Positions 16,817 through 35,179 of a DNA stretch of 44,867 bases are shown piece by piece. Under the pieces are notes generated by a model. It was not told the DNA's origin and did no database searches. It saw only the letters and a program-made list of their open reading frames with translations. A program made the position numbers and the translations under genes. Within the stretch, counting starts at the first letter, position 1, and each line of letters begins with the position of its first letter. Source of the stretch: Thermodesulfobacteriota bacterium (lineage in GTDB: Bacteria; Desulfobacterota; Desulfobulbia; Desulfobulbales; JBFMBH01); assembly GCA_040755095.1 (NCBI GenBank), contig JBFMBH010000016.1:1-44867 (forward strand), read 5' to 3'.

Positions 16817-17629
16817 TTACGGAAAGACGGCGGAGACCATCTCCTCCAGCGCGGCGAGAAGCTCGGGGTCGTCGCTGAGGGCGCCGGCCACCGCCACCCG
16901 GCAGGCGGTGCGGGCCGGGATGCCGGCGGCGATCAGCTTGCCGGCGTGAACCAAAAGACGGGTGCTGGCGCCCTCCGGCAGACCGCTGTCGGTGAGCCCG
17001 CGGGTCATGGCCGCCAGCTGCACCAGACCGGCAGCCAGGCCCTCCCCCACCCCGGTCTCGTGGCGGACGATGGCCGCCTCCCGCGCCGGGTCCGGATAGG
17101 AAAACTCCAGGGCCACGAAGCGCTGGCGGGTGGAGGGCTTGAGGTCCTTGACCACGCTCTGGTAGCCCGGGTTGTAGGACACCGCCAGCATGAACTCCGG
17201 CGGCGCCACCACCACCTGGCCGAGCTTTTCCACCGGCAGCTCCCGCCGGTCGTCGGCCAGAGGGTGGATGACCACGGTGGTGTCCTTCCGGGCCTCGACG
17301 ATCTCATCGAGGTAACAGATGGCCCCCGCCCGCACCGCCATGGTCAGCGGGCCGTCGGTCCAGACCGCCTCACCGCCCTTGATGAGGAACCGTCCCACCA
17401 GGTCGGCGGTGGACAGGTCGTCGTGACAGGAGACGGTGACCAGCGGCCGGCCCAGGGACCAGGCCAGGTGCGCCATGAACCGGGTCTTGCCGCAGCCGGT
17501 GGGGCCTTTGAGGAGAAGCGGCAGCTCTTGGCGGTACGCGGTGGTGGCAATCGTGAGCTCGTCCGCCAGGGGCAGATAGTACGGCTCCTCCTGGGGAGCC
17601 TGGGTGATACGATGGTCCTGCGCGTGCAT
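16817..17629 (-). CDS. MoxR-family AAA+ ATPase, NorQ/CbbQ type
   Basis: A 270-residue AAA+ ATPase with Walker [10 protein letters not shown] (42-50), the [14 protein letters not shown] block that distinguishes the NorQ/CbbQ group, Walker B ICYLDEI (104-110), and SYNPGYQS with the sensor Asn. ATG 17629 matches the family start; the frame is open to 17707. It forms an operon with the downstream NorD-like vWA protein and is expected to act with it as a co-chaperone. The 5' leader holds a strong hairpin (17668-17697) and a good -10 element. Confidence 0.92.
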
Positions 17630-17667
17630 GGGCGCCTCGTCTCCAAACGATCCGGGCCGGGCCAAGC

Positions 17668-17697
17668 GCGGCCGCACGGCCATTCCCGTGCGGCCGC
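17668..17697 (-). promoter_or_regulatory. Strong hairpin in the leader of the norQ-like gene
   Basis: A perfect 12-bp inverted repeat (GCGGCCGCACGG at 17668-17679 and its complement at 17686-17697) with a 6-base loop lies between the candidate promoter and the ATG at 17629. There is no T-run, so it is not a simple terminator. It could stabilise the mRNA or hinder initiation. Confidence 0.5.
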
Positions 17698-17730
17698 CCG
17701 CAATCACCGACCCATTCAGTGGGAATGATT

Positions 17731-18268: not shown

Positions 18269-19902
18269 ACGGCCGCCTTCCTCGTACCCGTTCGTCTTAG
18301 GCGCCCGGCCTCCACGAGTTGCTTGAGCAGCCGAGAGGCTTGGTGCTCTCCCAGCCGGCACAGATCCATCACGTCGCGCCGGCGGATGTTGCCGTGCTCG
18401 CGCACGTACCGCAGGACCATCTCTTCCTGCTGAATGGGCTCGAACCCGGCCTGCCGCACGTATTCGGCCTGCCGGCCGAGATTCCGGTAGACCTTGGCGC
18501 TCAGGGTGTAGGTACGGCCCCTCTTCACGCCATGGGCCTCGACCAGCCCGGCCTCCACGAGGCCTTCAAGTACTCCCCGGGCCAACGTCGAATCCTTCTG
18601 GATCGCCTTCGCCACCTGGCCCACGTCAACCCTCCGCCCCTCCCGGAGATCCGCCAGGGCGATCAGCGCGTCGAGGGCCAACGGTACGCGCCTCCGGTCT
18701 TCGTACTCCAAGATCATCCGGAGGAAGGGCACGTCGGCCTCAGCCTGGCTGAAGCGCACCACGACGCCGTTCGCATCGGACCGGCCGTAGTCGGGCGGCG
18801 GGCGGCCATAGCGCAGGAGCCCCTTGAAGATCAGATCGACCCCACGCCCCGTCCGCTCAGCAAGCCCGATGCGCTTCAAGGCGTCCGCCAGGGCCGGGTT
18901 CCTCGGCCGCGGCTCGACTGTGAGAAGGTTCTCCAGGGTCACGCCCTCCACGAACCCGCCCGGGTTGCTGACGGTGAGCCCATCGTCGTTCCAGCGCACG
19001 TGGACGGCGCCGAGCCGGGTGTAGTCCCGGTGGCACACGGCGTTGATGAACGTCTCGCGGAACGCCCTCCGGTCGAAGGTGGGGATCGGCACACGGAAAA
19101 GCCCAACCTGAATCTCCTCCTCTGTAACCCGGGTGGAGAATTGCTCTTCGATACGCTCGAAGACCCGCAGGAGGGGCCAGCGGTGGAAGTCGTTAACCCG
19201 GACCTCGGTGCCCTCCAGCACCTGGAACGCCACCTCGTGGGTGGGCAGGTGTGCGCGCAAGGACGGCTCCAGACCCAGGAGCAGCAGGCCTGTCACCGTG
19301 GGAACCCGGCGGCCCTCCTCGGTACGGACGAGCCCCAGGGCGCCGTCCAGTTCCCGGTCGCCGAGGCCCAAGAGCGCTCGATCGCCGCCGAAGCGCTCGA
19401 CCATCTGCCGCAGCCGTTGCCGCTCCAAGGGGTCCAGGTCCTGCTCCGATGCCCCGGCCACGGGCAGGGCCGAGTAGTCCAGGAGCCCGAGGTCGGACTG
19501 GCGCGAGGCGAACTCATGGGGAAGGAAGGGTACGCACTCGGGACTGCCGTCGGCCTTGAGCCTGCGGCGCTGGAGGAGGCCGTCCGCTGTGGCGACGAGC
19601 CGGTGCGACTTGGGGACCTCGATGCGCGCCACCAGGGTGCCAGCTTCCTCCACGGCGGTCACCCGTACCGACACCGGCGGCACGGTGCGATTGGCGATCA
19701 GGGCGGCCAGCCCCGTGAGGTTCAGGTGTTCGGCGTGGAGGCCGGTGATCTGCCCGTCTTTCTCGACGCCGAGGTACAGTTCGCCACCGTCGGTGTTGGC
19801 GAGACAGACCACGGCGGCGGCGAGGTCGGCGTCGCGCAGCCGCTTCGCGTCGCTCTTGAGCTCCACGGTCATCGACTCGTGCTCGGGAATCGTGCGCCTC
19901 AT
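18250..19902 (-). CDS. AlbA_2/Schlafen-type ATP-binding regulator (BREX-associated)
   Basis: The intact 550-residue protein has an N-terminal AlbA_2 (Schlafen-like) domain: VELKSDAKRLRDADLAAAVV, then LANTDGGELYLGVEKDG. A GHKL-type ATPase segment follows (FINAVCHRDYT, VSNPGGF, LKRIGLAERTGRGVDLI). The C-terminal half holds winged-helix repeats, for example EHGNIRRRDVMDLCRLGEHQ. Such proteins, often named RecG-like or transcriptional regulators, accompany BREX operons; their exact role is unsettled. The ATG overlaps the stop of the PglX remnant (ATGA). It appears to be the only complete gene left of this BREX locus, and its stop codon lies inside an operator-like array. Confidence 0.85.
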   Translation of the reverse strand: MRRTIPEHESMTVELKSDAKRLRDADLAAAVVCLANTDGGELYLGVEKDGQITGLHAEHLNLTGLAALIANRTVPPVSVRVTAVEEAGTLVARIEVPKSHRLVATADGLLQRRRLKADGSPECVPFLPHEFASRQSDLGLLDYSALPVAGASEQDLDPLERQRLRQMVERFGGDRALLGLGDRELDGALGLVRTEEGRRVPTVTGLLLLGLEPSLRAHLPTHEVAFQVLEGTEVRVNDFHRWPLLRVFERIEEQFSTRVTEEEIQVGLFRVPIPTFDRRAFRETFINAVCHRDYTRLGAVHVRWNDDGLTVSNPGGFVEGVTLENLLTVEPRPRNPALADALKRIGLAERTGRGVDLIFKGLLRYGRPPPDYGRSDANGVVVRFSQAEADVPFLRMILEYEDRRRVPLALDALIALADLREGRRVDVGQVAKAIQKDSTLARGVLEGLVEAGLVEAHGVKRGRTYTLSAKVYRNLGRQAEYVRQAGFEPIQQEEMVLRYVREHGNIRRRDVMDLCRLGEHQASRLLKQLVEAGRLRRTGTRKAAVYERGT

Positions 19903-20770
19903 GAGAGTTCGCTCTCGCCCAACAATGTCGACTTCTTCCGCCCCCGCTTCCCCTTCGGCTTCGGCGGCGCGACCTGGCAGAGGTGCTCCAGGCCGTGGGC
20001 GATGGCGATGGAGCGGTCCTTCTTGCAGGCGTCCTCTACCGCTTGAGCCAGATGATGTAGGCCAGGTGGGCCCAGTCGTGGTCGCCCTTGGCCAGCTTCT
20101 CCCAGCAGGCCTTCAGGTCCTTCTGCCACTTGGGCAGGCGGAAGAGCTTCCACAAGGGGCTCGCGGTGATGAGCACGCCGTCGTTCAGGTTCGGCTTCCA
20201 GGGGAGCTTGATGACGCGCTCGATCTCGGCCCGGAGGTCCTCCATCTCCTTCTCCAGGTCCAGCAACTCCTCCAGCCGGGCACGGGGGCCCGTGCCCTCG
20301 CGCAGGCCGGCGATCTCGGCCCGCACGACCTTGAGCTTCGGGGCCACGAAGTCGGCCAGGGCGGTGTGCAGGGTCTGGTCGGTGAGGCGGTGGTAGTAGA
20401 GCCAGAGGGTGTAGGAGCCCTTGGCTGTGGAGAGGGGCCAGTAGATCGGGGCCTGGCGGCGGCTCTTGGAGTAGCGCTTCAGATGGTCGGCGAAGAAGCC
20501 GGAGGGGCGCCGGAACCACTCGCGCAGGGTCTTCACGTCCAGCAGGTCACAAGCCTCGTGCTCAATCCCGTCGGCGCGGTCTTTCCAAACCACCTCAAGG
20601 ACCTCGCGTACACGGGCGACGATGTCCTCAGGGTGGTGCTCGTCGTCCGCGAGCATACCGTCCCAGGCCACATCGAGCGGGTAACTACCTTCGGCCCGCA
20701 GCCGGCGCCCGCTCTCCGGTGAGAGCGGCAGGCCGTCTTCTCCTTGAAGCATCGCAGGCGGACAGATCGG
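19899..20770 (-). pseudogene. pglX: C-terminal remnant of BREX methyltransferase PglX (BrxX)
   Basis: Homology begins near 20760 (LPLSPESGRR, DIVARVREVLEVVW) and runs through REWFRRPSGFFADHLKRYSK, APIYWPLSTAKGSYTLW, YYHRLTDQTL and DHDWAHLAYIIW, all characteristic of the PglX C-terminus. One base is missing near 20040, so the long frame stops at 20036. The true end (DACKKDRSIAIAHGLEHLCQ, then a Lys-rich tail) is in the next frame and stops at 19899. PglX methylates host DNA for BREX self-recognition, but the catalytic N-terminal two thirds are gone. The broken end abuts the stop of the five-gene operon at 20823. Confidence 0.87.
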
Positions 20771-20822
20771 TGTTCTTGCCGGCATTAGCGGCCGAGATCC
20801 GCCACCAGAAGAAGCCGGGCTG

Positions 20823-23774
20823 TCAGTCAGCGTCCTCGTCATCTGTTCCAATAGAGTACTCCGTCAAGATGTTGAGGAAATCAGTCTTCCCGGCATAGTC
20901 CAAGTAACCAATGGTGCCCGTGATGATCTCTTTGGCCTTGATGTATCGATTCTGCGGCATCGCCTTTTCCATTTTCTTGAGGTAGCCTTTCAACTTGTCT
21001 CGGATTTCGGAAGTTTCCTCGCTGCTGGCAGGAAGAAAGTTGCCATCGCATTTCCGGTAGCGCAAGAGATACAGCATCAGTTTGATGCCAGAAAAAAATT
21101 TATTCTTGAATTGTCCTTCTGCTGCATAACCATCAATCACCATCAAGACTGCTCCAAGCAGTATATTGATAGTTTTTTCGTTCAAGGCATCATGTCCGTT
21201 TCGTCGAAGGCTCATGATGTTGTTGCACGCTCGGACGCTTGGGTAAGAGAATTTATTGTCATCATGGATTTTTTTTGTGATACATTGCAAGATGCGACCA
21301 AGGTCCTTTGTCTCGGCAAGAGATCTACTCCCAGCTTCAATCGTTCGCGCACCACACCCAGGAATACAGAGATCTTGCCTGATTCGCTTGGTTACATGCT
21401 GCGGTGTAGCCCCGTAAAACCACGTGGCTCTGGTCAGTAACGAGCGGACTTGCTCGTCATCCCAGCCATCCAATTTCGTCGTATGTCTTTGCAGAGCCTC
21501 AATGAACCTGGCGACCAGACGTTCTCCCTCCTGGAAACCGGCCAATCCGTCCTGGCTCAGCACAGGGAGAAGAATTCGTTTCCAGGATTTCCGCGTTTTG
21601 ATGAAGCGATACATCTCATCAAGCCGTGTGTCGAAATCGGACGACCGAGGTGTTGTACCCTCAAATACATTCACCAAGTCGGGAATGCGGGCTTTCCTCC
21701 AAGGAGCAGGATCTGGGTGAGGTGTCAGCTCTTCCAAAGGTGGCCAGCCTCGGGCATCCGACACCAGTTCCTCGGTCGGGCAGGGGCGCATGGTCCGGTA
21801 ATCCACATAAACTCGGCGGCCATACAGGAACGATGGGTCCTGGGGGGTCACCTCCATCTGCGCCATGCCGCTTGCCGGACGGATGCGCACATGAAGGTCA
21901 ACGGGCATCCTCTCTGGTGGTGGCAGGGGAAAAGGGAAGGTGAGCCTTCGAAACGGAGTGTCCGCTTGTTTTTCTGCCTCCCTTTTATTTACCGTCTCTG
22001 GCCCCAGTGCACGCTGCTTCTCCTCTGGACCATCCGCTTTTGCGTGCCAGAGTTCCGCATAGATATCAGCATAACGAAGGGCAGCCGTGGAATTTTCAAT
22101 GTTGCGGAGATTCGTCTGGATTTTCTGCAAAGCTTCTTCTCGATTCGCAGCAGTCCTGACGAGATGACGTACCAGGCTTGCCTTGGCAATGGAAAGTCCG
22201 TCAGCAGAACTGCCTACTTCACGATCAAGACGATCAAGGCCTCCACTGGGCTTTAGCAATTCATCATGTCCGCCACCACGGGAGATGACAATATCAAGTT
22301 CATGAGAATGCTGCTCGATTTCAAACCGTCGACAGATATCGTTCTTATACTCCTGCCCCCCATCGGTGTCCTGGGCATCAACCAAAGGCGAAGTTGTATA
22401 GCGCCCGTCCTTCTTCGCCAACAGAAAATACTGCGGCAAGGTGTCGAGATAGGTCGGCTCGCCTTGTTGCAGTCGGTACAAGAAAAGCGCCGCACCCTGG
22501 GCAATGGCCTCACTGCCGGGATTCATCCAGAGGCGGTTCGCCTCACGGTTGTCCCACGGCCCACGCGTGTCCAGGCCCCGGGCTTCCAGTTCCGCAAAAC
22601 AATTCCGTAGCCAAACGGGTGGTTCGGCTGGAGCAAAGGGGCCGCAGACAGCCATTCCCACCAGCTGACCACCCTTTTGACTCTTGATGGTTTCCCGCAC
22701 AAGATTTGCCAGCCGGTCCGTCCATGCCGCGGGAGAGGGCACACTTCCTCGTAGGGAGCAAGAGGCTTTCAACGTTTCCTGTACTTGCCGTGATGGGCCA
22801 CAAACTGCCCTATCAAATCGAGCTGCGAGATCCTCCCTGGCCGGATTCCAGAAAGCATAGCCATGATCGAATCCCCAGGTCTGCGGCAAATCCGGCTGGC
22901 TCCAATGCCTTCCTGCCAGCACCTGCCATGCCTCTGGAAAGAATGAGAAGGCCCGCCAGAAAGCATCCCCGGCGCCCCCCTGAAGTTCGGGCAGCCCTGC
23001 CAGTGCCCGGCCCACCCAATCGTAGCCGGCAAGCGATGAAATCTCCCGGGGCCGCTCGCGGCGCGGCACGATGAAATCAACCCCTTGCTGGTTTTGGCAA
23101 ACCCGCAGCTTGAATGGCACACATTCAATGGCGTCCGGCCCGAGATAGAGGACAAGCAGAAAATCGTCTGGACGGCCCGTCATCGTCCGCCGACCTTCAA
23201 CCGTTCGAACCTTCATGTCGCCCCCAGCCTCTTCCAGCCAGGCGAGAGCGGCGGCCACGGGGCGCCACAGAAGTCGAACCTCAGTTCGGTCGCGGCGTTC
23301 AAATTCCCGTCTGAGCTCATCCAACAGGTTTTTCTGGCCGTACTCGTCAAGATCGTCAGGGATGGCCACTGCAACCTTCACATCGACAGGGTTTCCTTCC
23401 TCCAGAACGAGTAGATCCGCGATATGCGCCGCCAGGATTCTGGCAAGCGGGAAGGAAACCCCGCCGCCCACCTCCCAACGGGCCTGGCTGTCCCGCGCCT
23501 CGGTCAGGGCCCGCCATACACAACAGACAGGCGCCCGGCGCAGGTGTTCTCCAGCCTTGACGGAGGCCTCGGGTGGCCAAGGCAGGCCAGCATGCACTCG
23601 GGCTTTTCTGGCCTCTAATCCGGTCAGGATCGGCCCGTTCGGGTGCCCCGGAAGAACCACACACGCAGGCAGGAAATCGGCCGACTTGGCAATCGGGCCC
23701 GCGCACACAACGCTCATGTCGTCCAGCCCGAAGGCCGCACACCCCAGTATCAGGGGGTTCTTGCCATTGGTCAT
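20823..23774 (-). CDS. Hsp70/actin-fold (ASKHA) ATPase with long novel C-terminal region
   Basis: This 983-residue protein is the last gene of the five-gene operon. The N-terminal about 450 residues resemble a diverged Hsp70 ATPase domain. There is an initial strand NPLILGCAAFGLDD. VAVAIPDDLDEYGQ (about 135-146) parallels the Hsp70 VPAYF segment, and LLWRPVAAALAWL (about 168-180) parallels the NEPTAAALAY segment. LLVLYLGPDAIE (206-217) replaces the phosphate-2 DLGGGT loop, and GSEAIAQGAALFL parallels the final AVAxGAA helix. The canonical DLGGG glycines are reduced to LGP, so ATP binding may be altered. The C-terminal half has no fold I recognise. The ATG overlaps the upstream gene's stop (ATGA). 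The frame is open to 23837, but the coupled ATG is preferred. Its G+C content looks lower than that of flanking housekeeping genes. Confidence 0.75.
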   Translation of the reverse strand: MTNGKNPLILGCAAFGLDDMSVVCAGPIAKSADFLPACVVLPGHPNGPILTGLEARKARVHAGLPWPPEASVKAGEHLRRAPVCCVWRALTEARDSQARWEVGGGVSFPLARILAAHIADLLVLEEGNPVDVKVAVAIPDDLDEYGQKNLLDELRREFERRDRTEVRLLWRPVAAALAWLEEAGGDMKVRTVEGRRTMTGRPDDFLLVLYLGPDAIECVPFKLRVCQNQQGVDFIVPRRERPREISSLAGYDWVGRALAGLPELQGGAGDAFWRAFSFFPEAWQVLAGRHWSQPDLPQTWGFDHGYAFWNPAREDLAARFDRAVCGPSRQVQETLKASCSLRGSVPSPAAWTDRLANLVRETIKSQKGGQLVGMAVCGPFAPAEPPVWLRNCFAELEARGLDTRGPWDNREANRLWMNPGSEAIAQGAALFLYRLQQGEPTYLDTLPQYFLLAKKDGRYTTSPLVDAQDTDGGQEYKNDICRRFEIEQHSHELDIVISRGGGHDELLKPSGGLDRLDREVGSSADGLSIAKASLVRHLVRTAANREEALQKIQTNLRNIENSTAALRYADIYAELWHAKADGPEEKQRALGPETVNKREAEKQADTPFRRLTFPFPLPPPERMPVDLHVRIRPASGMAQMEVTPQDPSFLYGRRVYVDYRTMRPCPTEELVSDARGWPPLEELTPHPDPAPWRKARIPDLVNVFEGTTPRSSDFDTRLDEMYRFIKTRKSWKRILLPVLSQDGLAGFQEGERLVARFIEALQRHTTKLDGWDDEQVRSLLTRATWFYGATPQHVTKRIRQDLCIPGCGARTIEAGSRSLAETKDLGRILQCITKKIHDDNKFSYPSVRACNNIMSLRRNGHDALNEKTINILLGAVLMVIDGYAAEGQFKNKFFSGIKLMLYLLRYRKCDGNFLPASSEETSEIRDKLKGYLKKMEKAMPQNRYIKAKEIITGTIGYLDYAGKTDFLNILTEYSIGTDDEDAD

Positions 23775-25501
23775 GCGAGCATCTTCTCCAACATGTAATG
23801 CAGAGAAAGCATAATGGTCTCGGTGCCATCCATCCATCCCGCTGGCATCATTGGGACAGTGATCAGGCGTAGCTTCTCACGATTGACCTCGCTGGATGCT
23901 TTCGGCTCGAAATGGCTGCACAGGACAAGCCCCCGAAGCATTGGCGGCTGCTCAAGCCTGGCCATGTCCAGGAGGGTCTGGTGGCCATCCAATGCCTTGG
24001 CGGCGGAGGCAGCAATTTTTTCCCAGGAAGGAATCTTTGTCGAAGCGGCTGTGTGGACAGCCCAGACAATCAACACACGGGGTGGAACCTTCTGTTCCAC
24101 AGGCCGGAGAACAAGATAGAGTTGACCGCCGGTAAAGCCGAGATGACGTGCGACGGGGTGGTCTTTCGCATTCTCCGGATGAACGATCTCCAATACGGCT
24201 CGTCGGGGCGGCCCTTCTCCCCTGTTGCGCCGTTCAATCAGCAGGGGGCCTGTTTCGCAGCCGGCCGCGGCCCGGCTGCCCAGGATCTGTTCGCCCCGTA
24301 CCTGGAGCGCCCCTTCGTACAATGTGGAGAGCCGCAGGGAGTTACTGCCATCAAGCTCCTCCATGTGGAGAATAATGGCGACGCTGACCAGCAGGCGGGC
24401 AATATCCGCCCAGGTTCTGGACTGCCAGTCCCAGAATCGGTCCTTTTCCCTCTCCTGCCGCAGGAGCCGCTGATACCATCGCCAGACTTGCCGATAGCGC
24501 ATGTCATGGAGCAGCACATAATTGGGCGGCGTAGACGGATGTGGGGCGTCCACCTCCTCCAAATGAGGCGCCATGGCGAGCTGGGTGCAGAGAGAGGAGA
24601 GAGACCGTACTCTCCCGGTACGTTCTGAATTCTCGAAGGCGGGATTCTCGGACCGGGCATTGGCGATATACCTCTTGGCCTCTGCCGTGCAGCGATGGAG
24701 GAAATCCTTGAGGATGCGGTTTTCGTGCAAGTTGTAGGTTTCTTGCCGAGCTACCGCGAGCAGTCGCTGCCTCGACCCCGCCTTTTCGGCCAAGGTCCGT
24801 CCTTGCTGACGGATGTACCAGTGGAGGCAGGCACTGTCGGTCTCCTCCACCCTACCGGCGGGCAAGAGCCGCCGTTCCCGGAGCAGGACACGACGAGCGG
24901 CCCGCACGGTTTCAGGGAGTGGCCGGTGCATGGTTTCGGCAATGTCCACAATGATGGCCCGGGATGGCTCTTGCGTCGCCTCTGCCAATTCCTTCAGGTA
25001 GGCCTTGACCCTTGTCCATTCCAACAACTCGTTTGATCGACTCATGGCATGAGCCTTATCCAGCAGCTCGTCGAACCGGCTGGACCAGGCAAGCACCGTT
25101 CGATACAAGTCGGAATCCCGGCTGGCACCTTGTTCATCGCACCTCTCCCACCTGGGTTTTACACCTTTGGGCGAGAGAAGGACTCGTTGACGGACGTTAT
25201 CGCCATTGATGGTGCTGTGAATGGCAAGGCCGGCATTGTTTGAAACGTCGGCATCGGCCCCATGCGGGCTTTCGAAAAGGCGGCAACGTTCCGGAGAGGA
25301 CGGAGGCAGAAAGGATGGTCCCAACGGGTGAAACCGCTCGTGCCGGGCGGGCAGGAAGATTTGAGCGCTCTCAGCCAGCGAGATGATTGGACTGCCATAG
25401 TACGGGAACGTGACCTCGCCGTCGGAGAGGTTCCTGGTTTCCTCGCCCGTGGCGCAAGACCAGGGCCAGAAATGAACACGGGCCGGAATCCGAACGGTCA
25501 T
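23771..25501 (-). CDS. DUF2357/McrC-like nuclease-family protein
   Basis: A 576-residue protein placed directly after the McrB-like ATPase, the position of McrC in McrBC loci. The central segment RQETYNLHENRILKDFLHRC (about 252-271) matches the conserved helix of DUF2357 proteins, which carry a PD-(D/E)XK nuclease fold. The C-terminal part contains alternating strands (RRAVLEIVHPENAK, GGQLYLVLRP, PPRVLIVWAVHT), but I do not find the usual D-x-K (DAK) catalytic strand. The nuclease may be inactive, highly diverged, or replaced by the VSR-like nuclease of the operon's helicase. Both ends overlap neighbours by ATGA. Family assignment is fairly sure; activity is not. Confidence 0.7.
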   Translation of the reverse strand: MTVRIPARVHFWPWSCATGEETRNLSDGEVTFPYYGSPIISLAESAQIFLPARHERFHPLGPSFLPPSSPERCRLFESPHGADADVSNNAGLAIHSTINGDNVRQRVLLSPKGVKPRWERCDEQGASRDSDLYRTVLAWSSRFDELLDKAHAMSRSNELLEWTRVKAYLKELAEATQEPSRAIIVDIAETMHRPLPETVRAARRVLLRERRLLPAGRVEETDSACLHWYIRQQGRTLAEKAGSRQRLLAVARQETYNLHENRILKDFLHRCTAEAKRYIANARSENPAFENSERTGRVRSLSSLCTQLAMAPHLEEVDAPHPSTPPNYVLLHDMRYRQVWRWYQRLLRQEREKDRFWDWQSRTWADIARLLVSVAIILHMEELDGSNSLRLSTLYEGALQVRGEQILGSRAAAGCETGPLLIERRNRGEGPPRRAVLEIVHPENAKDHPVARHLGFTGGQLYLVLRPVEQKVPPRVLIVWAVHTAASTKIPSWEKIAASAAKALDGHQTLLDMARLEQPPMLRGLVLCSHFEPKASSEVNREKLRLITVPMMPAGWMDGTETIMLSLHYMLEKMLA

Positions 25502-28005
25502 GCCTGGTCATCCTGCCGCGTCACACCCTGCCAAAGGAACATGCCAGAGGCGTTGCTTTCCCGCGCAGTGGCGAAGGCCTTGTGCAGTTCCCCGTCGCCG
25601 GTATCTTCAATGATCTTTCCAATATCATCAAAAGCAGCATTGTTGATGCCTTCCGTGGTATCGAACCCCCGCAGCTTGGGCAGTATCTTCTGTTCGATCT
25701 GGTCGGCAAAGGCGTCTTTGAAGACGTCGCGAGTCACGCCTGGGTAGTTAGCCACATAGGCCAGAATGCTTTTCCGAACTCGATGCCCAAACGGGCGCCC
25801 CACTCTGGTGAGTGCATCATTGAGACCATTGATCCATTCCTGCGCCTTTTCGGTCCAGTCAGCCGACTCGACGGGGCGACACCATTTTGCCCACTGTTCA
25901 GCCTTCAGGTATCCAAGAGGTTGCGGCAGCGGACGTTCCTGGATCTGTTGTGGCCCCGCCGGGCCTGTTTTTGCCGGGCGACCAAAGCGCAGGACGTTGG
26001 CCCGATCGAGGACTTTGTCAGAGAGGGTCTGGGTGGATTCGTCCTCGTTCATGGTGCCAGTAAAAAGGACATTTTGTCCCACACAGAATTTGATGGCCTC
26101 CCGTCCTGGTCCAGTGTCCAGAAGAATTGTGTCGTGTTGATGATCGCGGTCAGCCAACCTCCGCAACTCAAGCTTGGAGAGAAACTCGCTGAAATAGTAC
26201 TCGGTGCGTGCCAGGTTCATCTCATCGAGCAAAACAAGCAGCATCCGATCAGAGCATTTCTGCTTTTCATCAAGTCCTTCCACGGTACAGGAACGGTCCA
26301 TGCGGATGAGGGCACGGGCCAGATCGGTCGCCTTGTATTTTTTTTCCAGGTAGTTGTAGAAGCCGAACATGTCCTGCGGCGAATCCCAACGCGGCTGAAC
26401 CGCGATCACCAAAGAATGCATGCCCATGAGTCTGGCATAGGCGGTGGGCAGAAGGGTCTTGCCAGTTCCGGACACACCGGCAAGCACAGTCAGCGGGTTG
26501 ATGTCATGGCACTTGAGGGCCGTATGGAAGGCCTTCACCACACGTTCCTGGAAGTGATATCCGACATCGGCAAGTTGCCGACAGATCTCCGCCAGGGCAC
26601 CTTCCTCATCGCTATACGGGAATTCCTTTTTGGGCAGGTGGCTGGGGTCAAGGCAGTCGGGTGCTTTCTTGAGGAGATCGGCGTGGGCGTTATCCATCTC
26701 TGGCCCGCCACCGCCCTCAAGACCGCCGACCTCCTTGCGCAACCTGTCGCGCTCCCCTTCGAGAACTGCCACTTCAATGCCAAGACGCTTTTCCTTGTTC
26801 TCCACTTCTTCAAGCCGGTCCTCCGCCTTTTTCAGCCGGCTGGTCATCGCAAGGTGACTTGCTTCCGCCCTCCGTGTCTGGTCATCCCAATACTGGACCG
26901 CCTTTTCGCTTTCTGGCACTTTTCTCTGAGCATCAGCAAGAGCTTGTTCGATGTTGGACTTTGTTCTTTCCAACTGTTGAACCTGTCGGACAAGACTCTG
27001 AAGCAACTCCTCCTTCAGAGAAAGTTCGTGGTGTTTTTCCTGAACCTGACGGCTCATGTCGCCAAGAATCTTGCCGGATTCCTCAGCTTCCGCCATGCGG
27101 CGCCGAGCCTTCTCCTCGGCTTCTTTTGCAGATACTTCCGCAACCTCTCGATCTTTTTCAAGATCGGCCATCTCCTGCTTGAATCCAGCCTTCTCTTCCT
27201 CCAGCCTTCTGATCCCACGCTCAAAGTCATGAATGCGGTCCTCGGCCTGAATCAAAACCCCCTTTTGCAGCTGAACCTGCTGAGTTATTTCCAGAAGCTG
27301 CCTGCTTGATTCTTCAGCCTCTCGATGTGCTCGTTCGTTCTCGGTCTTTGCGTTTTCCGCCTGTTGCATCAATTCAACTCGATGCCTGTCCAGTCCATCA
27401 CACTCACGGCGCAGTGCGTCGAGTTCAATGCGCCTTTCCACAACCTGCCTGACGACATCCTCCCGTTCTTTCTGCGCTGCGCTCCATTCCTGCTTCACTG
27501 CGTCAAGGGACTTGTATATTTCCTTAAGCTGCGTCTCGACGCTGACCAGTTCAGCCCGTTGCCTTTCCAGATCCTCGATGCGATGTCGCAGATCTTCTGC
27601 CTCGTGGTTCAACCTTTCGATGACTTGGGAAATGGTATGCCGCTGAGCCTCGAATTCTCCAGCCTCCCTTCGCAGTTCTACGTTTCGTTGCTCTTCAGCA
27701 GCACATTCGTGCTGAAGTCGTGTCAACTCGCCGCGCAAGCGTTCCTGTTCAACCCTTTCGGAATCCAGTCGTACCAACTCATCCTTCTGAGCCGTAAACC
27801 AATCCCGCAACCCTTGCACATCAGACTGAAGTTGTTCCTTGCGCGCTGCAAGAGAAGACGCATCGCGGCTGTCGCCAAGGGCCGCGGAAAAACGGCGTTG
27901 ATGATACAGGTACATGCCAAAAATAATCAGCATGATGATTATGACCCCGGCTGTGGCCAACAGCCACAATCCAGCCGGAAGGATCGGAACGGAAACGGTA
28001 TTCAT
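25498..28005 (-). CDS. Membrane-anchored coiled-coil protein fused to McrB-like AAA+ NTPase
   Basis: The 835-residue protein has one transmembrane helix (about 12-35, with VIIIMLIIFG) and a very long heptad-rich coiled coil from about 45 to 430, rich in Glu, Lys, Arg, Gln and Leu. A Gly-rich hinge leads to an AAA+ domain of the McrB class: Walker A GVSGTGKT (510-517), Walker B VLLDEMNLAR (591-600) followed by TEYYFSEFLSKLE, sensor 1 TGTMNEDEST (649-658), and the LSDKVLDRANVLRF arginine region. McrB proteins are GTPases that drive a McrC nuclease. The membrane tether and coiled coil replace the usual N-terminal modified-DNA reader. AAGGAG precedes ATG 28005. The frame stays open to 28413, but that part antisenses the neighbouring gene. 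Confidence 0.85.
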   Translation of the reverse strand: MNTVSVPILPAGLWLLATAGVIIIMLIIFGMYLYHQRRFSAALGDSRDASSLAARKEQLQSDVQGLRDWFTAQKDELVRLDSERVEQERLRGELTRLQHECAAEEQRNVELRREAGEFEAQRHTISQVIERLNHEAEDLRHRIEDLERQRAELVSVETQLKEIYKSLDAVKQEWSAAQKEREDVVRQVVERRIELDALRRECDGLDRHRVELMQQAENAKTENERAHREAEESSRQLLEITQQVQLQKGVLIQAEDRIHDFERGIRRLEEEKAGFKQEMADLEKDREVAEVSAKEAEEKARRRMAEAEESGKILGDMSRQVQEKHHELSLKEELLQSLVRQVQQLERTKSNIEQALADAQRKVPESEKAVQYWDDQTRRAEASHLAMTSRLKKAEDRLEEVENKEKRLGIEVAVLEGERDRLRKEVGGLEGGGGPEMDNAHADLLKKAPDCLDPSHLPKKEFPYSDEEGALAEICRQLADVGYHFQERVVKAFHTALKCHDINPLTVLAGVSGTGKTLLPTAYARLMGMHSLVIAVQPRWDSPQDMFGFYNYLEKKYKATDLARALIRMDRSCTVEGLDEKQKCSDRMLLVLLDEMNLARTEYYFSEFLSKLELRRLADRDHQHDTILLDTGPGREAIKFCVGQNVLFTGTMNEDESTQTLSDKVLDRANVLRFGRPAKTGPAGPQQIQERPLPQPLGYLKAEQWAKWCRPVESADWTEKAQEWINGLNDALTRVGRPFGHRVRKSILAYVANYPGVTRDVFKDAFADQIEQKILPKLRGFDTTEGINNAAFDDIGKIIEDTGDGELHKAFATARESNASGMFLWQGVTRQDDQA

Positions 28006-28039
28006 GGCAACTCCTTTTTTCGCGGAGGAGAGGCAGAGA

Positions 28040-29587
28040 TCACGGCTTTTTCGGAACACCTGGCGGGTTGAGAGGCGATTGTTCCGAAAGATCGGTGCTG
28101 GCTGCATCCTGCTGGGCATGCCGACCCTGCACCTGACTGATCTCCTCTTCCATCTTGCGCCGGGTGTCCTTGAGATCCCTGACGGTTGAGGCGAGGTCGT
28201 CTCCGGCCACCTTGACACCCTGGGATGCCGTCGACAACGCATCGACCACCGCCAGAACAGCTGCATCGCGCGTGGAAAATTCCTGTAGCGTCTCAGCAAG
28301 CTGATCAAGATTGGCCCCGGCCGTTTTCGCCGCCTGTGCTGCATCATCCAAGGCGTCCAAGGACTGGGAGACAGCGTCCTTGCGTGAGCTGACATCCCTC
28401 GCCACCTTGTCAAGACGACCGGCTCCCGAGTCGAGCTTGCCAGCCGTTTCCTCGATAACCTTCTGATGCGAAATCAAGGCGCCACTGGCGGTCCTTATCT
28501 TTGTTTCCAGGTCCACCAGGGTCCCTACAGCGCCTTGCAGGCTACCGACCAAGCCGGAAAGCTGCCTCTGTTCGGCAGACAGGCTGGCGACCATTTCGGT
28601 GAACTTGGCAATCTTATCCTTCACCCCGTCAACTGCAGGACCCAGTTTGCCCTCGGTGGCTGTCGAAAGAGCGGTGGCCGTCTTGCCAAGCGTGGCAACA
28701 GCCGTGTCGAGATTTGTCTGCCGGTCCGCAATGCGCTGCGCCAGCCCGTCGACCTGCGCAACGCCCTTCTGGAGTACAGCGACGGCGTCATCGGCTCTTT
28801 TCGCGGCCACTTCAAGTCCTTTCGCATCGGCCGTCACCTGTTGGCTCGCACCGGCAAGAGCCTTGCCAGCACTGCCAGCCCCCTGCTCCATGTCCTTCAA
28901 CGTTCTGCTCAGCTCCATGAGACGAGTTGGCAGGGTGGCCAATGCTTCGTCCAGTTCCGCCCGACGCTTCTCCAGTTGGGCTATTGTGTCTCTCAGAATG
29001 GAGAGCCTTCCCTGTTCCGCCGTCGTTTCCTTCAGGGCTGCTCCTCTTTGATCCTGCAGCTTGGCGATCTCCAGCGAAAGGGCATCGTTGGCCCGGATGA
29101 GTTCAGCTTGCTCCTTGTTCAACGTGCCCATTTTCCTTTGAACGTCCACCAACTGGTCTTGCGCCTCGCTTGCCCTGGACTGGAGGCCCTTGAGCTCCTC
29201 TTCTGCCTTTGCCCTCTTGCCTTCCATGGCCACCAGCCGCGTTTCAGCGGCACCAACTGCTGCCTGTAGACCAAACAAGGTCGTCTCGGCCTCCTGGCGG
29301 TGCCTCTGCAGTTCGGGCAGTTGGGCCAGGATTTCGCCGTAGGTTTTCAAGTCATCACTCAGTCGTGCACGATCCTTGGCGAGGGAGGTCCGCTCCTCGA
29401 GCAGGGTGGCCCGTTCCTGCTCAAGGTTGACGATCTTCCAACCGGAGAGAGCGGAAAAGATGACCACGAGAGCAACTAGGCCGCACATGAGGGCAAACGG
29501 GGGAGGTCGATCAAGGAGAATCGGCCTCGTCAAGGGCTCGTCGGTCGGCGGACCTGACGGAAGTACGGAGTCAGGCTGCATGCTCAT
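28040..29587 (-). CDS. Membrane-anchored coiled-coil protein
   Basis: The 515-residue protein has a short Pro-rich cytoplasmic start, one transmembrane helix at about 32-50 (FALMCGLVALVVIFSALSGW), and then almost continuous coiled coil to the end. The first half is rich in Glu, Leu and Arg; the second is rich in Ala, Thr, Asp and Val (for example DKIAKFTEMVASLSAEQRQL), like methyl-accepting or tail-fibre helices. No catalytic domain is seen. It resembles its downstream neighbour's N-terminal half in layout, so the two may co-assemble at the membrane. The ATG at 29587 overlaps the helicase gene by 17 bases and is preceded by GGAG. A second ATG at 29581 is possible. Confidence 0.8.
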   Translation of the reverse strand: MSMQPDSVLPSGPPTDEPLTRPILLDRPPPFALMCGLVALVVIFSALSGWKIVNLEQERATLLEERTSLAKDRARLSDDLKTYGEILAQLPELQRHRQEAETTLFGLQAAVGAAETRLVAMEGKRAKAEEELKGLQSRASEAQDQLVDVQRKMGTLNKEQAELIRANDALSLEIAKLQDQRGAALKETTAEQGRLSILRDTIAQLEKRRAELDEALATLPTRLMELSRTLKDMEQGAGSAGKALAGASQQVTADAKGLEVAAKRADDAVAVLQKGVAQVDGLAQRIADRQTNLDTAVATLGKTATALSTATEGKLGPAVDGVKDKIAKFTEMVASLSAEQRQLSGLVGSLQGAVGTLVDLETKIRTASGALISHQKVIEETAGKLDSGAGRLDKVARDVSSRKDAVSQSLDALDDAAQAAKTAGANLDQLAETLQEFSTRDAAVLAVVDALSTASQGVKVAGDDLASTVRDLKDTRRKMEEEISQVQGRHAQQDAASTDLSEQSPLNPPGVPKKP

Positions 29588-32500
29588 CGGCGTTTCTCCA
29601 TTGATGAAGGATCCTTTCCACACAACCATCCATATCCTCGCGCAGTTGATAGACCCAGAACCGCATCACCTTCCACCCCAGTCCCTGGAGCTGAATATCC
29701 CGCCACAGATCATCCAGCTTCCGGGAGCCGTCCGAATTGCGGTGGCAGCAGGCGCCATCAACCTCGATATCGATCTTGCGCGGCCGGGGAGCCCCACTGA
29801 ACAAGGCGAGGTCCAGCCGCCGCCCTGCCACAGGATGTTGCGGTACAGGGGAAAGCCCATGCGCCATCAAGGCCTCGGCCAGCTTCTTCTCCCATGGCGA
29901 CTCATGCGGCGCCCAGGGGCTGTCTGCAGGGGAATGCACGATGGCCCTGCGCGGCATGGCCAAGCGCTCGACATGCTGGATACCACAGTTCCTGGCCCAG
30001 GCCCGATTGCCGACTATGCGCGCCACCGCCCGCGCCCTGCTGATCGCCACATTGAACAGATTGCCGTTTTCCCGCAGAAAATGAAGCCCGCCCTGGGGCA
30101 TACCCGGTCCGGCGCAGAGGCTGAAAAGAATGACATCCCGTTCATCACCCTGGAAGCCGTGTGATGTGTCAACAACGACCCGAGCCGAACGTAGGGCTTC
30201 CCAGGGGATACCGCCGTCATGAATGGCTTCGCGCAAACGGTTCGCCTGTTCACGAAAAGGCGTGACCACGCCGAGCGATCCCTTGAAGGAGCCATCCGCC
30301 AGGATCTCACGAACGATGTCCGTTATCGCCTCGACCTCCGGGGCACAAAAGGCGCCCCCAGAGCCGCCACTACGGACATCTCCCTGAACCTCATCCCAGT
30401 GAAGGCCGGGCTTCATTCCTGACACAACCGGCAGCCGGGCAACGTCCGTGGCCACGCGCAGCCTTCCGCCATAGAAAAGATCGTTGGAGTAGGCCGCGAT
30501 CTCCTCGACGCTTCGGTAGGTCTCACACAGGAGGATCGGGGAAACACCGTCCGTATCAGCGAACAGGGCATAGAGCGAGGATTCGACAAACGAGAATCGC
30601 TGTTGCGCCAGGCGATCCATGCCGGCCCGGCGACGAAGCATGGTGTCCTTGGCCAGCGATAGCGTGGTGACGTGCGTGAGTTGCTGGGGGTCGCCGACCA
30701 CGCCGGCCCTTCTCGCGCGAAAGAGAAGAGGGATGGCGGAAGGGATATCGGACTGACTTGCCTCATCGACGATTACGAGATCGAAGACCCCGGGCAGAAG
30801 GGGGATGCGGCTGCCCGCGGAGAGGCTGGTCACGGCCCACGCGGGATAGTGTTCCAGGAGCTTGGGGAGTTGTGTGCGAAGGACCTCTTTGACTTCCTGT
30901 TGGAGGCTCGTGGAGGCGGTTGCCTGTTCAAGGAACCCCAGGGCAGAGCGGAGATTGGCATAGAGCTCCCGGCTGTCGGCGGGCAGGAGGCCGCCTCGCG
31001 CCAATGCCAGCTTTTCGAGCAGCCCCGTGGATATGTTCATGATCTGTTCGCTGGCAAGCGAAACATCCGAGACAAGGGCTGGTTCATCAGCAAGGAGGCG
31101 AACCTCTTTTTCCAGGCCGGCGCGGAAGGCGAGAGCGGCACAATACTCTGCGGCGTCTCGCAGGAGTCCCAGTTGTCGCCTGAAGGCTTCGATCCTGCCG
31201 GGCGTGCTTATCAACCCCTCTGGAGCGGGCAGCCCCGGAATGCGGCGCAGTTTACGCCCGAGTGTGATCCATGCCGGCATGGCGGCCATGGCTGCTCGCC
31301 AGGCAACCCAACGGGAGATCGTGTCGCCGGGGCCGCGGAGCAAGAGCCGCGCTGCTTCCTCCACCCGCTGCAGCGCTGGCTCGGGAAAACCCGAGGAGAG
31401 GTTGCCCAGCGTGGACAAAAGGGCTTCGGGCAGTTTTCCCACCAACAGGGAAACCTTTTCCTCCAGCTCACCCAGCCGTTCCCGGTAAGCCCGGAACACC
31501 TCCAGCTGTTTCAGGTTTGCCGCCCGCACATCGAGCAAGCGTCGCAATTCGGTAAGAAGCGGGGACGCAGCTTCCGCCGCCTTCTCATCGGCCTGGCCGG
31601 CGAGGAGTCGGCCGATGGCAGACGTGAAAGTCTCACGCAGACCAGGATCATCCCGACTGTTACAACGCACGAGAAGAGATTGCCCTTCCCCGCAACGGCA
31701 ACGGGCATGCACGGCATCGATGGCCTTGTGGTTACGGCTGGAGAACAGCACACTCTGACTGCACAGATGAATGTTGGCGATCGCCGCGCTTACCACCTGA
31801 CTCTTGCCGGTTCCCGGCGGCCCGGTCACAACCGTGATTGGCTGGTTGAGTAGGCACTCGACCGCGTTTCGTTGTTCGGAGTTGAGATTCGTGACGTCGG
31901 CCACCTGAACATTGGCTCTGGAGGGTTCATTTTCCGACCGGGCGTGTTCTCCCTCGGCGCGAAACAGCAGGCGAAGCGCTGTCTTGTCCAGCTCGCTGTC
32001 CGGGAATTCTGCAATGGCGGCCAGCTCCTTGAGGAGCGTCTTGGTGTACTGCGGCCGACGGGCGAGCATGACGACAGCCCGATTGTAGATGCCTGTTGTG
32101 AGGGGCGGTCGGAAATCGGAGGAGGGAATAGCGTCGGGCAAGAGTGGCTCTTGCAGCTCCCGCGACAGGAACGCGGCCAGGGTCGCAGCCAGATGGTCGA
32201 GGCTCGGACCAGATCGGGAGGCTGGTGCGGCGTCGTCGTCCCCGCCGAGGAAGCCACAGGCGGAGAGGAAACCACGACGTTTTTCCGCATCCTTGAAGGT
32301 GTGGTGCATCCATTCCAGATTGATCTGCGCATGGGGGTGATCTGCTTGCAACACGAGTGAGCCCTGGCTCAACTCATGATCCAGGGCGTAGTGAAAAACG
32401 GGTTTCAGCAGAAAGGAGTCGGGTTCGCCCTCCCGTTGCCACTTCACAACCTGCAGCGGATAGCCAAGAACCAGAAGGGCATCCTGCCCGGCGCTGGCGA

Positions 32501-33056
32501 GCTGCTCGATCATCGGGCCCAGATGACGACCAAGCGGCACCGTGTGCCGCCATGGTCGGCCAGGGCGTGGCAGCCACGATCCGACCCGCGTAACAAGGAA
32601 AAATTTCTCATTCAGGTTGTCGAGACCGGCCATGGCCTCGGCTCCACCTTCGTTCCGGATGCAGTCCCGATAATATTGAAGAAGCATCCGGAAGTTCCCC
32701 CACGGACTTGGCAAAGAATCCTTGGGTCGATCGCCGTCTGGACCTTCGGGGGCGGCTGGTGGTGGTGGAAAACTCGGCTGCCCAAGGAGATGAAGGGCTT
32801 CCCCTGAAATCTTCGGAAATGCAATGCTGCCCGAAGAGCATGTAGGTTCTGTTGGGGCAGCTACAATGCGCCATCGGCCCATTGCGAACTGCACATGCCC
32901 CTCCTGCATGAGGTCGCGCAGGGCGCCCAACACTTCATGTTCCGGTACGCGACGCCCTTGCGTAGCAAGCCTTCGTCTGAGGTCACGGACGGGAGTGGGG
33001 TGCGGTGCCGCATTGAGAATAGCGAGAAGTTCCGCCTTCATGTCTTCCTGGGACAT
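29571..33056 (-). CDS. UPF1/Dna2-like SF1 helicase with N-terminal winged helix and C-terminal VSR/DUF559-type nuclease
   Basis: The first gene of the operon encodes 1161 residues. Residues about 5-65 look like a winged helix (LLAILNAAPHPTPVRDLRRR). The helicase core follows: a Q-like motif LNSEQRNAVE, Walker A GPPGTGKS (412-419), a long helical insert (about 480-740), Walker B VIVDEASQSD, GDPQQL, CETYRS, VTPFREQANR, and motifs V/VI (DTSHGFQGDERDVI, FNVAISRARA). The C-terminal 115 residues match VSR/DUF559-like PD-(D/E)XK nucleases: ESPWEKKLAEAL, RRLDLALF, IDIEVDGACCH, SRKLDDLWRD and LGWKVMRFW. All catalytic positions appear present. I chose ATG 33056; an upstream TTG at 33116 and an ATG at 33041 are alternatives, and none has a strong ribosome-binding site. 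Confidence 0.87.
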   Translation of the reverse strand: MSQEDMKAELLAILNAAPHPTPVRDLRRRLATQGRRVPEHEVLGALRDLMQEGHVQFAMGRWRIVAAPTEPTCSSGSIAFPKISGEALHLLGQPSFPPPPAAPEGPDGDRPKDSLPSPWGNFRMLLQYYRDCIRNEGGAEAMAGLDNLNEKFFLVTRVGSWLPRPGRPWRHTVPLGRHLGPMIEQLASAGQDALLVLGYPLQVVKWQREGEPDSFLLKPVFHYALDHELSQGSLVLQADHPHAQINLEWMHHTFKDAEKRRGFLSACGFLGGDDDAAPASRSGPSLDHLAATLAAFLSRELQEPLLPDAIPSSDFRPPLTTGIYNRAVVMLARRPQYTKTLLKELAAIAEFPDSELDKTALRLLFRAEGEHARSENEPSRANVQVADVTNLNSEQRNAVECLLNQPITVVTGPPGTGKSQVVSAAIANIHLCSQSVLFSSRNHKAIDAVHARCRCGEGQSLLVRCNSRDDPGLRETFTSAIGRLLAGQADEKAAEAASPLLTELRRLLDVRAANLKQLEVFRAYRERLGELEEKVSLLVGKLPEALLSTLGNLSSGFPEPALQRVEEAARLLLRGPGDTISRWVAWRAAMAAMPAWITLGRKLRRIPGLPAPEGLISTPGRIEAFRRQLGLLRDAAEYCAALAFRAGLEKEVRLLADEPALVSDVSLASEQIMNISTGLLEKLALARGGLLPADSRELYANLRSALGFLEQATASTSLQQEVKEVLRTQLPKLLEHYPAWAVTSLSAGSRIPLLPGVFDLVIVDEASQSDIPSAIPLLFRARRAGVVGDPQQLTHVTTLSLAKDTMLRRRAGMDRLAQQRFSFVESSLYALFADTDGVSPILLCETYRSVEEIAAYSNDLFYGGRLRVATDVARLPVVSGMKPGLHWDEVQGDVRSGGSGGAFCAPEVEAITDIVREILADGSFKGSLGVVTPFREQANRLREAIHDGGIPWEALRSARVVVDTSHGFQGDERDVILFSLCAGPGMPQGGLHFLRENGNLFNVAISRARAVARIVGNRAWARNCGIQHVERLAMPRRAIVHSPADSPWAPHESPWEKKLAEALMAHGLSPVPQHPVAGRRLDLALFSGAPRPRKIDIEVDGACCHRNSDGSRKLDDLWRDIQLQGLGWKVMRFWVYQLREDMDGCVERILHQWRNADEHAA

Positions 33057-33886: not shown

Positions 33887-35179
33887 TCAGCGGGCCTCGC
33901 CCCGGCGCTCCAGGACGTGGAAGTCGATGCGGGTGCCGATGGCCGCCTCGCGATCCGGGGTCAGAGGCTCGCCCTCCAGGGCGGACAGGAAGACCGCCCA
34001 GTCGTGGCGGCTGCGGCCCTCCTGCCGGCCGGGCGCCAGCCCGGTATGGCAGTTCTTGCCGTCCTGGGAAAAGCGGGCCATGAGCCGCTTCTCCCGTTCC
34101 TGGTGGAAGCCGCGCAGCTGGTCGAGATCGCTCTCCATCACGCTGCTGCCAAGGGTCTCCACCGCGGTGCCGATCAGGCGCTCCATGGCCTCGATCCGGT
34201 GCCCCTGACTGTCGCCGGCAGGAAACAGGTGGCATTCGGCACAACGACCCAGGAAGAGGCGTGACAGGGTTGCCTCCCGCCGGCGATGGTAGGCCATGAG
34301 GATCCGGATCTTCTCGTCGGAGATCAGATCCGGCGCCTTGGACTGCATCCTCCGGATCAGCTCCAGCCACTCCTCGTCGGACAGAGAGTGGGCCGTGGCC
34401 CGCTCCGCCGGATGGCAGGCGCTGCAGGTGGTCTCAAACACCTGCACCTCCCGGCGCTGCTGATCCACGTGGAAGGCCACCAGCTCCTCCACGTCCGCAT
34501 CGCTGATGGCGCCCTTGCTGTAGCGCTGCATGACCACCAGGGTGCTGTGCCAGGCATCCTGGTCCTGAAACACCCCCAGGGCCCGCTCCGGCTCGTGGCA
34601 GCTGGAGCACTTGTCCAGGAACAGCGCGATGGGCCCCCCCGGCTTCTCGGGATCCCGGCCCAGGGCCAGGGCGAGATCCCGCTGCAGGGTGGTCCGGTGC
34701 TCGCGGATGTGGTAGGCGATGAGGATCTCCACCTCCGGATCGGTGATGGTGTTGCCGGCCTTCTCCTGCATCCGCCGCACCAGCTCCCGGATCTGCTCCG
34801 GGCTCAAGGCCTTGTCCGTCACCTTGCGGCCCGGGTGGCAGCCCTCGCAGCGGCGGGCGAAGAGCTTAGCCTCCTCCTGCTGCCGCTCCACATGGTAACG
34901 GACCAGGGCCTGGACCTCGGGCAGCGAGATGTCCGCCTGATGCTCCTCCCGCATGCGATTGATGGTGGTCAGCCAGGCGGCCTCGCTGCGGGTGGCGGCG
35001 AGGGCCCGCTCCGGTTCGTGGCAGCCGGCACACTTGGCCCGGAAGAGGGCAGCGCCGGAGGGCTCCGGGGGCGCCACCCGGCTCGCCGGCGCCGGGCTCC
35101 GGCAGGCCGCCAGAAAGGCCAACAGGCCGGCCAACGTCACCAGCCAAGCCGTGCCCAGTCGACCGCTGGTCGCCCTCAT
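33887..35179 (-). CDS. Five-haem cytochrome c lipoprotein built of internal repeats
   Basis: The 430-residue protein begins with a lipoprotein signal (MRATSGRLGTAWLVTLAGLL then AFLAAC, lipidated Cys26), so it is probably anchored outside the inner membrane. It has five CxxCH haem motifs at 50-54, 111-115, 191-195, 252-256 and 313-317, plus a lone NCHTG near 378. The haem motifs start repeats of roughly 60-80 residues: CxxCHEPERA, a helix with a conserved Trp/Ile and MQ or MR, then IxDxEVxxLxAYH, whose distal His could be the second haem ligand. A role in electron transfer is likely; the partner is unknown. AAGGAGG precedes the ATG, which overlaps the aminotransferase stop (ATGA), an odd pairing. 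Confidence 0.85.
   Translation of the reverse strand: MRATSGRLGTAWLVTLAGLLAFLAACRSPAPASRVAPPEPSGAALFRAKCAGCHEPERALAATRSEAAWLTTINRMREEHQADISLPEVQALVRYHVERQQEEAKLFARRCEGCHPGRKVTDKALSPEQIRELVRRMQEKAGNTITDPEVEILIAYHIREHRTTLQRDLALALGRDPEKPGGPIALFLDKCSSCHEPERALGVFQDQDAWHSTLVVMQRYSKGAISDADVEELVAFHVDQQRREVQVFETTCSACHPAERATAHSLSDEEWLELIRRMQSKAPDLISDEKIRILMAYHRRREATLSRLFLGRCAECHLFPAGDSQGHRIEAMERLIGTAVETLGSSVMESDLDQLRGFHQEREKRLMARFSQDGKNCHTGLAPGRQEGRSRHDWAVFLSALEGEPLTPDREAAIGTRIDFHVLERRGEAR

Follow-up and report, generated by a model that had tools for sequence, protein, structure and literature searches.

A probable Type III-B CoCoNuT operon in a member of the Desulfobacterota, with apparent membrane anchors on CnuA and CnuB

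Which system is encoded by five tightly packed genes that combine a helicase-nuclease, two coiled-coil proteins, a DUF2357 protein and an Hsp70-like protein, and how might such a system work? We addressed this question in the window, that is, the whole stretch of 44,867 nucleotides that was analysed, where the five genes lie on the minus strand between positions 20823 and 33056 in the following order.

29571..33056, minus strand: cnuH, 1161 aa; winged-helix-like N-terminal region, SF1 UPF1-like helicase and C-terminal Vsr/MTES_1575-like PD-(D/E)xK nuclease
28040..29587, minus strand: cnuA, 515 aa; one N-terminal transmembrane segment, then a long coiled coil, with matches to coiled-coil families only
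25498..28005, minus strand: cnuB, 835 aa; N-terminal transmembrane segment, coiled coil of ~400 residues and C-terminal McrB-like AAA+ GTPase domain
23771..25501, minus strand: cnuC, 576 aa; DUF2357 (McrC N-terminal) protein whose C-terminal region lacks conserved PD-(D/E)xK residues
20823..23774, minus strand: cnuD, 983 aa; N-terminal Hsp70-like nucleotide-binding domain and C-terminal helical region (low-confidence model)

All five frames are open and contain no internal stop, as an earlier note on this DNA had claimed. With the starts adopted here, the junctions that it had given as three overlaps of 4-17 bases and one 34-base gap were also reproduced: cnuH and cnuA overlap by 17 bases, cnuA and cnuB are 34 bases apart, and cnuB/cnuC and cnuC/cnuD each overlap by 4 bases (ATGA). 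The surroundings of the operon include the following features.

20036-20851 and 19899-20519, minus strand: BREX pglX remnant, a frame-broken C-terminal piece that adjoins the operon downstream and corresponds to profile positions 1047-1273 of 1332
14486-16762 and 16817-17707, minus strand: VWA-domain protein beside a CbbQ/NorQ-type AAA ATPase
11444-12595, minus strand: Fic-family protein (SoFic defence model, E = 2.8e-117)
33887-35179, minus strand: multihaem cytochrome-c-like protein in which the CxxCH module is repeated several times

Further along from the pglX remnant there are an AlbA_2/Schlafen-type protein and a partial Type I methyltransferase match, while ordinary genes (cytochrome c, aminotransferase) occupy the 5' side of the operon. 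The earlier description of the region as an island of broken defence genes is right in part only, with the frame-broken pglX remnant, the partial methyltransferase match and the SoFic-like Fic protein speaking for it. Because no pglX match was found in the genome beyond this remnant, BREX appears to have been lost from it. The G+C content of the operon is 58.5%, compared with 68.3% for the remaining window, and this low value together with the adjoining decayed pglX remnant indicates that the operon was probably acquired horizontally.

Pfam searches assigned AAA_11, AAA_12, REase_MTES_1575 and DUF559 (Vsr-like) domains to CnuH. Its Walker A and Walker B motifs, at residues 412 and 763, are separated by a stretch of ~350 residues; across 11 sequences, the SF1 motifs are identical or near-identical and the Vsr-type residues (E, RRLD, IEVDG, H, D, RK) are retained. 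Vsr itself is a DNA endonuclease. Residues 20-77 of CnuH (P0005) matched a winged-helix domain (MCM4_WHD) weakly and below the threshold. PADLOC matches pointing to membership in Mokosh, Zorya or Jet/Lmu were dropped, as they reflected the helicase core common to UPF1-like proteins or coiled coils of a generic kind. CnuB matches AAA_5 in Pfam and possesses the Walker A motif GVSGTGKT and a shortened NxD motif, GTMNEDE (GTMNEDESTQ). Apart from its transmembrane segment and coiled coil, no further domain was recognizable in CnuA. CnuC matches DUF2357 in Pfam (E = 6.8e-08), but no conserved PD-(D/E)xK catalytic set was found in its C-terminal half across 16 homologues, and alignment with E. coli McrC in hhalign recovered only a common DTL(E/A)NR motif.

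For CnuD, profile searches of Pfam, NCBIfam, PADLOC and PDB returned no useful match. When a CnuD profile of 19 sequences was aligned with an Hsp70 profile of 9 sequences, hhalign gave a probability of 79% (E = 1.6e-05) and a collinear alignment of CnuD residues 28-223 with DnaK residues 29-211, whereas both controls, in which CnuC was aligned with Hsp70 and CnuD with the Hsp70 profile in reverse, gave 0.1%. An earlier alignment with one DnaK sequence had reached 4%, which was too weak, and it was the deeper profiles that raised the value. The Hsp70 kinship of CnuD is thus weak by sequence and below certainty. In addition, the Hsp70 phosphate-2 loop, DLGGGTFD, reads YLGPDAIE in the window's CnuD, and because of this degeneration efficient ATP hydrolysis is unlikely; degenerate CnuD motifs are likewise given in the main text of Bell et al. 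2024 (PMC11090510). The earlier view of an Hsp70-fold protein acting as an extra ATPase switch consequently stands as regards the Hsp70-like part, while the degenerate loop weakens the switch, and a role of CnuD as a sensor or adaptor is at least as likely. The AlphaFold models of CnuC and CnuD, each built from a three-row alignment, were unusable (pLDDT 33 and 37, respectively), and the helical C-terminus of CnuD was seen in that poor model only.

The Type III-B CoCoNuT was defined from genome comparisons by Bell et al. 2024 (eLife 13:RP94800, PMC11090510). According to the main text of that paper, it comprises a CnuH with an N-terminal wHTH and a fused Vsr-like nuclease, a CnuA that is encoded separately and is coiled coil throughout, a CnuB with the NxD motif, a CnuC whose PD-(D/E)xK fold is inactivated and hence catalytically dead, and a separate, Hsp70-like CnuD with HEAT-like repeats, and it has no TerY-P. 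The operon analysed here has an NxD coiled-coil CnuB, a helicase-Vsr CnuH with a large insertion after Walker A, a separate CnuA, a CnuC lacking the catalytic residues and a separate cnuD gene. TerY-P genes were found neither in the operon nor in the neighbouring ORFs examined, and the VWA protein at 14486-16762 has a CbbQ-type AAA as its neighbour, with no phosphatase or kinase found beside it. We therefore consider it very probable that the operon is a complete Type III-B CoCoNuT. The earlier note was borne out in treating the locus as a CoCoNuT-related, defence-type operon with an Hsp70-like protein. Its suggestion that the gene set might be without a name was not supported: the set matches the published Type III-B part for part, and the note itself had counted a match to a named system against its reading. 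The idea of an unnamed new system was dropped accordingly. The system is probably functional, and a role in antivirus defence resembling Type IV restriction is predicted; in the literature searched, no experimental phage protection by any Type III-B CoCoNuT was found.

Whether the five genes stay together in other genomes had been proposed as a check, and they do: the same genes in unchanged order were found at 17 further loci (18 with the window), in 14 Desulfobacterota genomes and on three rhizobial plasmids. Because of this recurrence, chance assembly of the five genes is excluded. Desulfopila sp. IMCC35006 (L006/L010) and Desulfoprunum benzoelyticum (L007/L009) carry the order, six more Desulfobacterota genomes were reached with the helicase profile (L025-L030) and another six with the CnuD profile (L055, L056, L057, L059, L060 and L062). 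The plasmid copies belong to Rhizobium leguminosarum (L011), Sinorhizobium meliloti GR4 (L012) and R. tropici CIAT 899 (L013), and they agree with the mainly Alphaproteobacterial range of Type III-B stated in the main text of Bell et al. 2024 (PMC11090510), where no name in 'Desulfo' was found. On the Alphaproteobacterial side, the sample was confined to rhizobial plasmids. Queries with CnuC, CnuH, CnuB and CnuD independently reached related loci. The host falls in the order that also includes Desulfopila and Desulfoprunum, and it has no close relative among the genomes compared.

Fourteen of the 18 loci look intact. At L013 the helicase gene is shortened and adjoins an IS21 element, at L060 it is split, and at L055 an opposite-strand ORF (1895-2929), probably an insertion, separates the two halves of cnuH; at L057 the five-gene run leaves the contig end. 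L028 and L029 are near-identical. Further CnuD-bearing loci look degraded (L064) or are cut by contig ends (L058 and L063). CnuH homologues at E <= 1e-80 occur in 8 of 395 genomes of the phylum, the window's own counted, a scan of genome contigs with CnuC yielded two loci only, and no CnuC homologue was found in viral contigs. Defence genes adjoin several relatives, as the earlier note's reading of the system led one to expect: hsdRMS of a Type I RM system (L006/L010), hsdR (L027), ZacBC (L009) and Shedu (L011).

The claim that both coiled-coil proteins carry one membrane segment gained further weight from the relatives. A single strongly hydrophobic N-terminal stretch, taken as a transmembrane segment from its hydropathy (mean Kyte-Doolittle values of 2.0-3.3 over 19 residues), is present in both CnuA and CnuB at 18 of 18 Type III-B loci, window included. 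Such a stretch was also found in the CnuB of a partial nineteenth locus (L061) and of a Type III-C-like locus on Synechocystis pSYSX (L014), whereas four Type II/III-A CnuBs lack it, with hydropathy maxima of 0.78-1.08. In a CnuB tree built only from the sequences gathered here, the III-B/III-C group bearing the segment was separated from the II/III-A group lacking it with 100/100 support. The window's CnuB grouped with rhizobial (Alphaproteobacterial) and Desulfobacterota sequences and fell inside a Desulfobacterota clade (96/98 support). The charges flanking the segment favour an N-out/C-in orientation of CnuB, which would put both the GTPase domain and the coiled coil on the cytoplasmic side (p = 0.04), while those of CnuA favour neither orientation (p = 0.12); both p-values are rough because the sequences are related. 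In most Desulfobacterota CnuAs, a GWKIVNLExE(R/K) motif just past the segment (about 29420-29440 in the window) is strongly conserved, in contrast to the diverging rest of the coiled coil.

The word 'transmembrane' occurs six times in the text and references of Bell et al. 2024, in no case about Type III-B, with figure labels and supplements lying outside that search. The anchor on CnuA and CnuB has thus apparently gone unremarked, although the main text alone is no basis for claiming priority. We favour, with some confidence, the view that Type III-B (and III-C) CoCoNuTs carry out nucleic-acid surveillance while anchored in the membrane. Both their McrB-like GTPase, which would form a ring, and its coiled-coil partner would be fixed to the inner membrane, in contrast to the soluble Type II/III-A systems; this arrangement suggests detection at phage entry. 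If real, the anchor would provide a simple and testable hypothesis on the site and manner of infection sensing by these systems and would be a feature marking off the III-B/III-C branch.

The detailed mechanism, in which a membrane-tethered GTPase and coiled-coil scaffold controls the helicase-nuclease, is tentative; we infer its steps from McrBC biology and from the main text of Bell et al. 2024, to which we have added the membrane placement. CnuB oligomers would be tethered at the inner membrane, their coiled-coil and GTPase parts lying in the cytoplasm, and CnuA, tethered alongside, would interact with CnuB in a scaffolding role; the anchoring of both would place the complex at the inner membrane. 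CnuC might bind to a ring of CnuB in the way that McrC does to McrB, controlling GTP hydrolysis without cutting, and the CnuH helicase-nuclease would be under GTP-driven control. CnuD, with its poor catalytic loops, could serve as a recognition module or adaptor, and recognition of foreign or aberrant RNA or of ribosome-associated complexes has been proposed for it (Bell et al. 2024, PMC11090510, main text). Upon recognition, the CnuH helicase would translocate along RNA or single-stranded DNA, and the Vsr nuclease fused to it would cut that strand close to the membrane, at the site of phage nucleic-acid entry.

The same components could instead act on DNA, with Vsr cutting incoming DNA at the membrane, the helicase working on single-stranded DNA and CnuD being a structural adaptor rather than an RNA sensor. 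The full conservation of the Vsr/MTES_1575 residues agrees with this, tethering at the membrane fits the point of DNA entry, and, according to the main text of Bell et al. 2024 (PMC11090510), the subtype has no HEPN RNase and UPF1-like helicases work on ssDNA as well as RNA. However, an RNA target is the published prediction for Type III-B, derived there from kinship with the HEPN-bearing Type II/III-A systems and from Hsp70 homologues, and we regard DNA targeting as quite possible but short of probable. A second, cell-killing stage has also been proposed for CoCoNuTs in the same text. Anchored sensors would suit the detection of infection at the membrane, upon which CnuH might cut host RNA or DNA indiscriminately and growth would stop; since the operon contains neither a CARF or HEPN partner nor a toxin-like module, such abortive infection seems unlikely.

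It is far less probable that the operon serves housekeeping, as a quality control of nucleic acids or of the envelope. The membrane segments, the chaperone-like protein and the ordinary genes on the 5' side would be in keeping with such a role, but the patchy distribution of CnuH in the phylum, the carriage on plasmids, the foreign G+C content and the defence-gene neighbours of four relatives all argue against it. We retain the reading of a defence system that is probably tethered to the membrane.

Among known systems, canonical McrBC of E. coli K-12 resembles the operon in pairing a GTPase with a DUF2357/McrC protein. However, McrBC has no helicase, CnuA or CnuD; its McrB has no coiled coil and carries an NxxD motif, and its McrC is an active nuclease. 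The Type II/III-A CoCoNuTs (L015, L033, L034 and L008) share the UPF1-like helicase, the coiled-coil NxD GTPase and the DUF2357 protein but differ in having a CnuB without a transmembrane segment, a separate effector gene, no separate CnuA or CnuD and, adjoining L015, L033 and L034, TerY-P kinase/phosphatase genes. The Type III-C system of Synechocystis pSYSX (L014) has an NxD CnuB with an N-terminal transmembrane segment, a DUF2357 protein and further genes in the run, one of them CnuD-like by position, whereas it carries a Phospholipase-D-family nuclease gene in place of the Vsr fusion and no separate CnuA was seen in it. With the published Type III-B CoCoNuT, the operon has in common the five components, the NxD GTPase, the Vsr-helicase fusion, the separate CnuA and CnuD and the lack of TerY-P. 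It departs from the description in the defining paper's main text (supplements and figures lying outside this comparison) in that both CnuA and CnuB have a transmembrane segment, a consistent anchor on two components that is outside the discussion there, and in its Desulfobacterota host, which has many relatives in that phylum here, while the set in that main text is mainly Alphaproteobacterial. The operon is a real and complete example of the published system from a host group less usual for it, and it extends Type III-B CoCoNuTs to the Desulfobacterota, in which they occur widely but with a patchy distribution.
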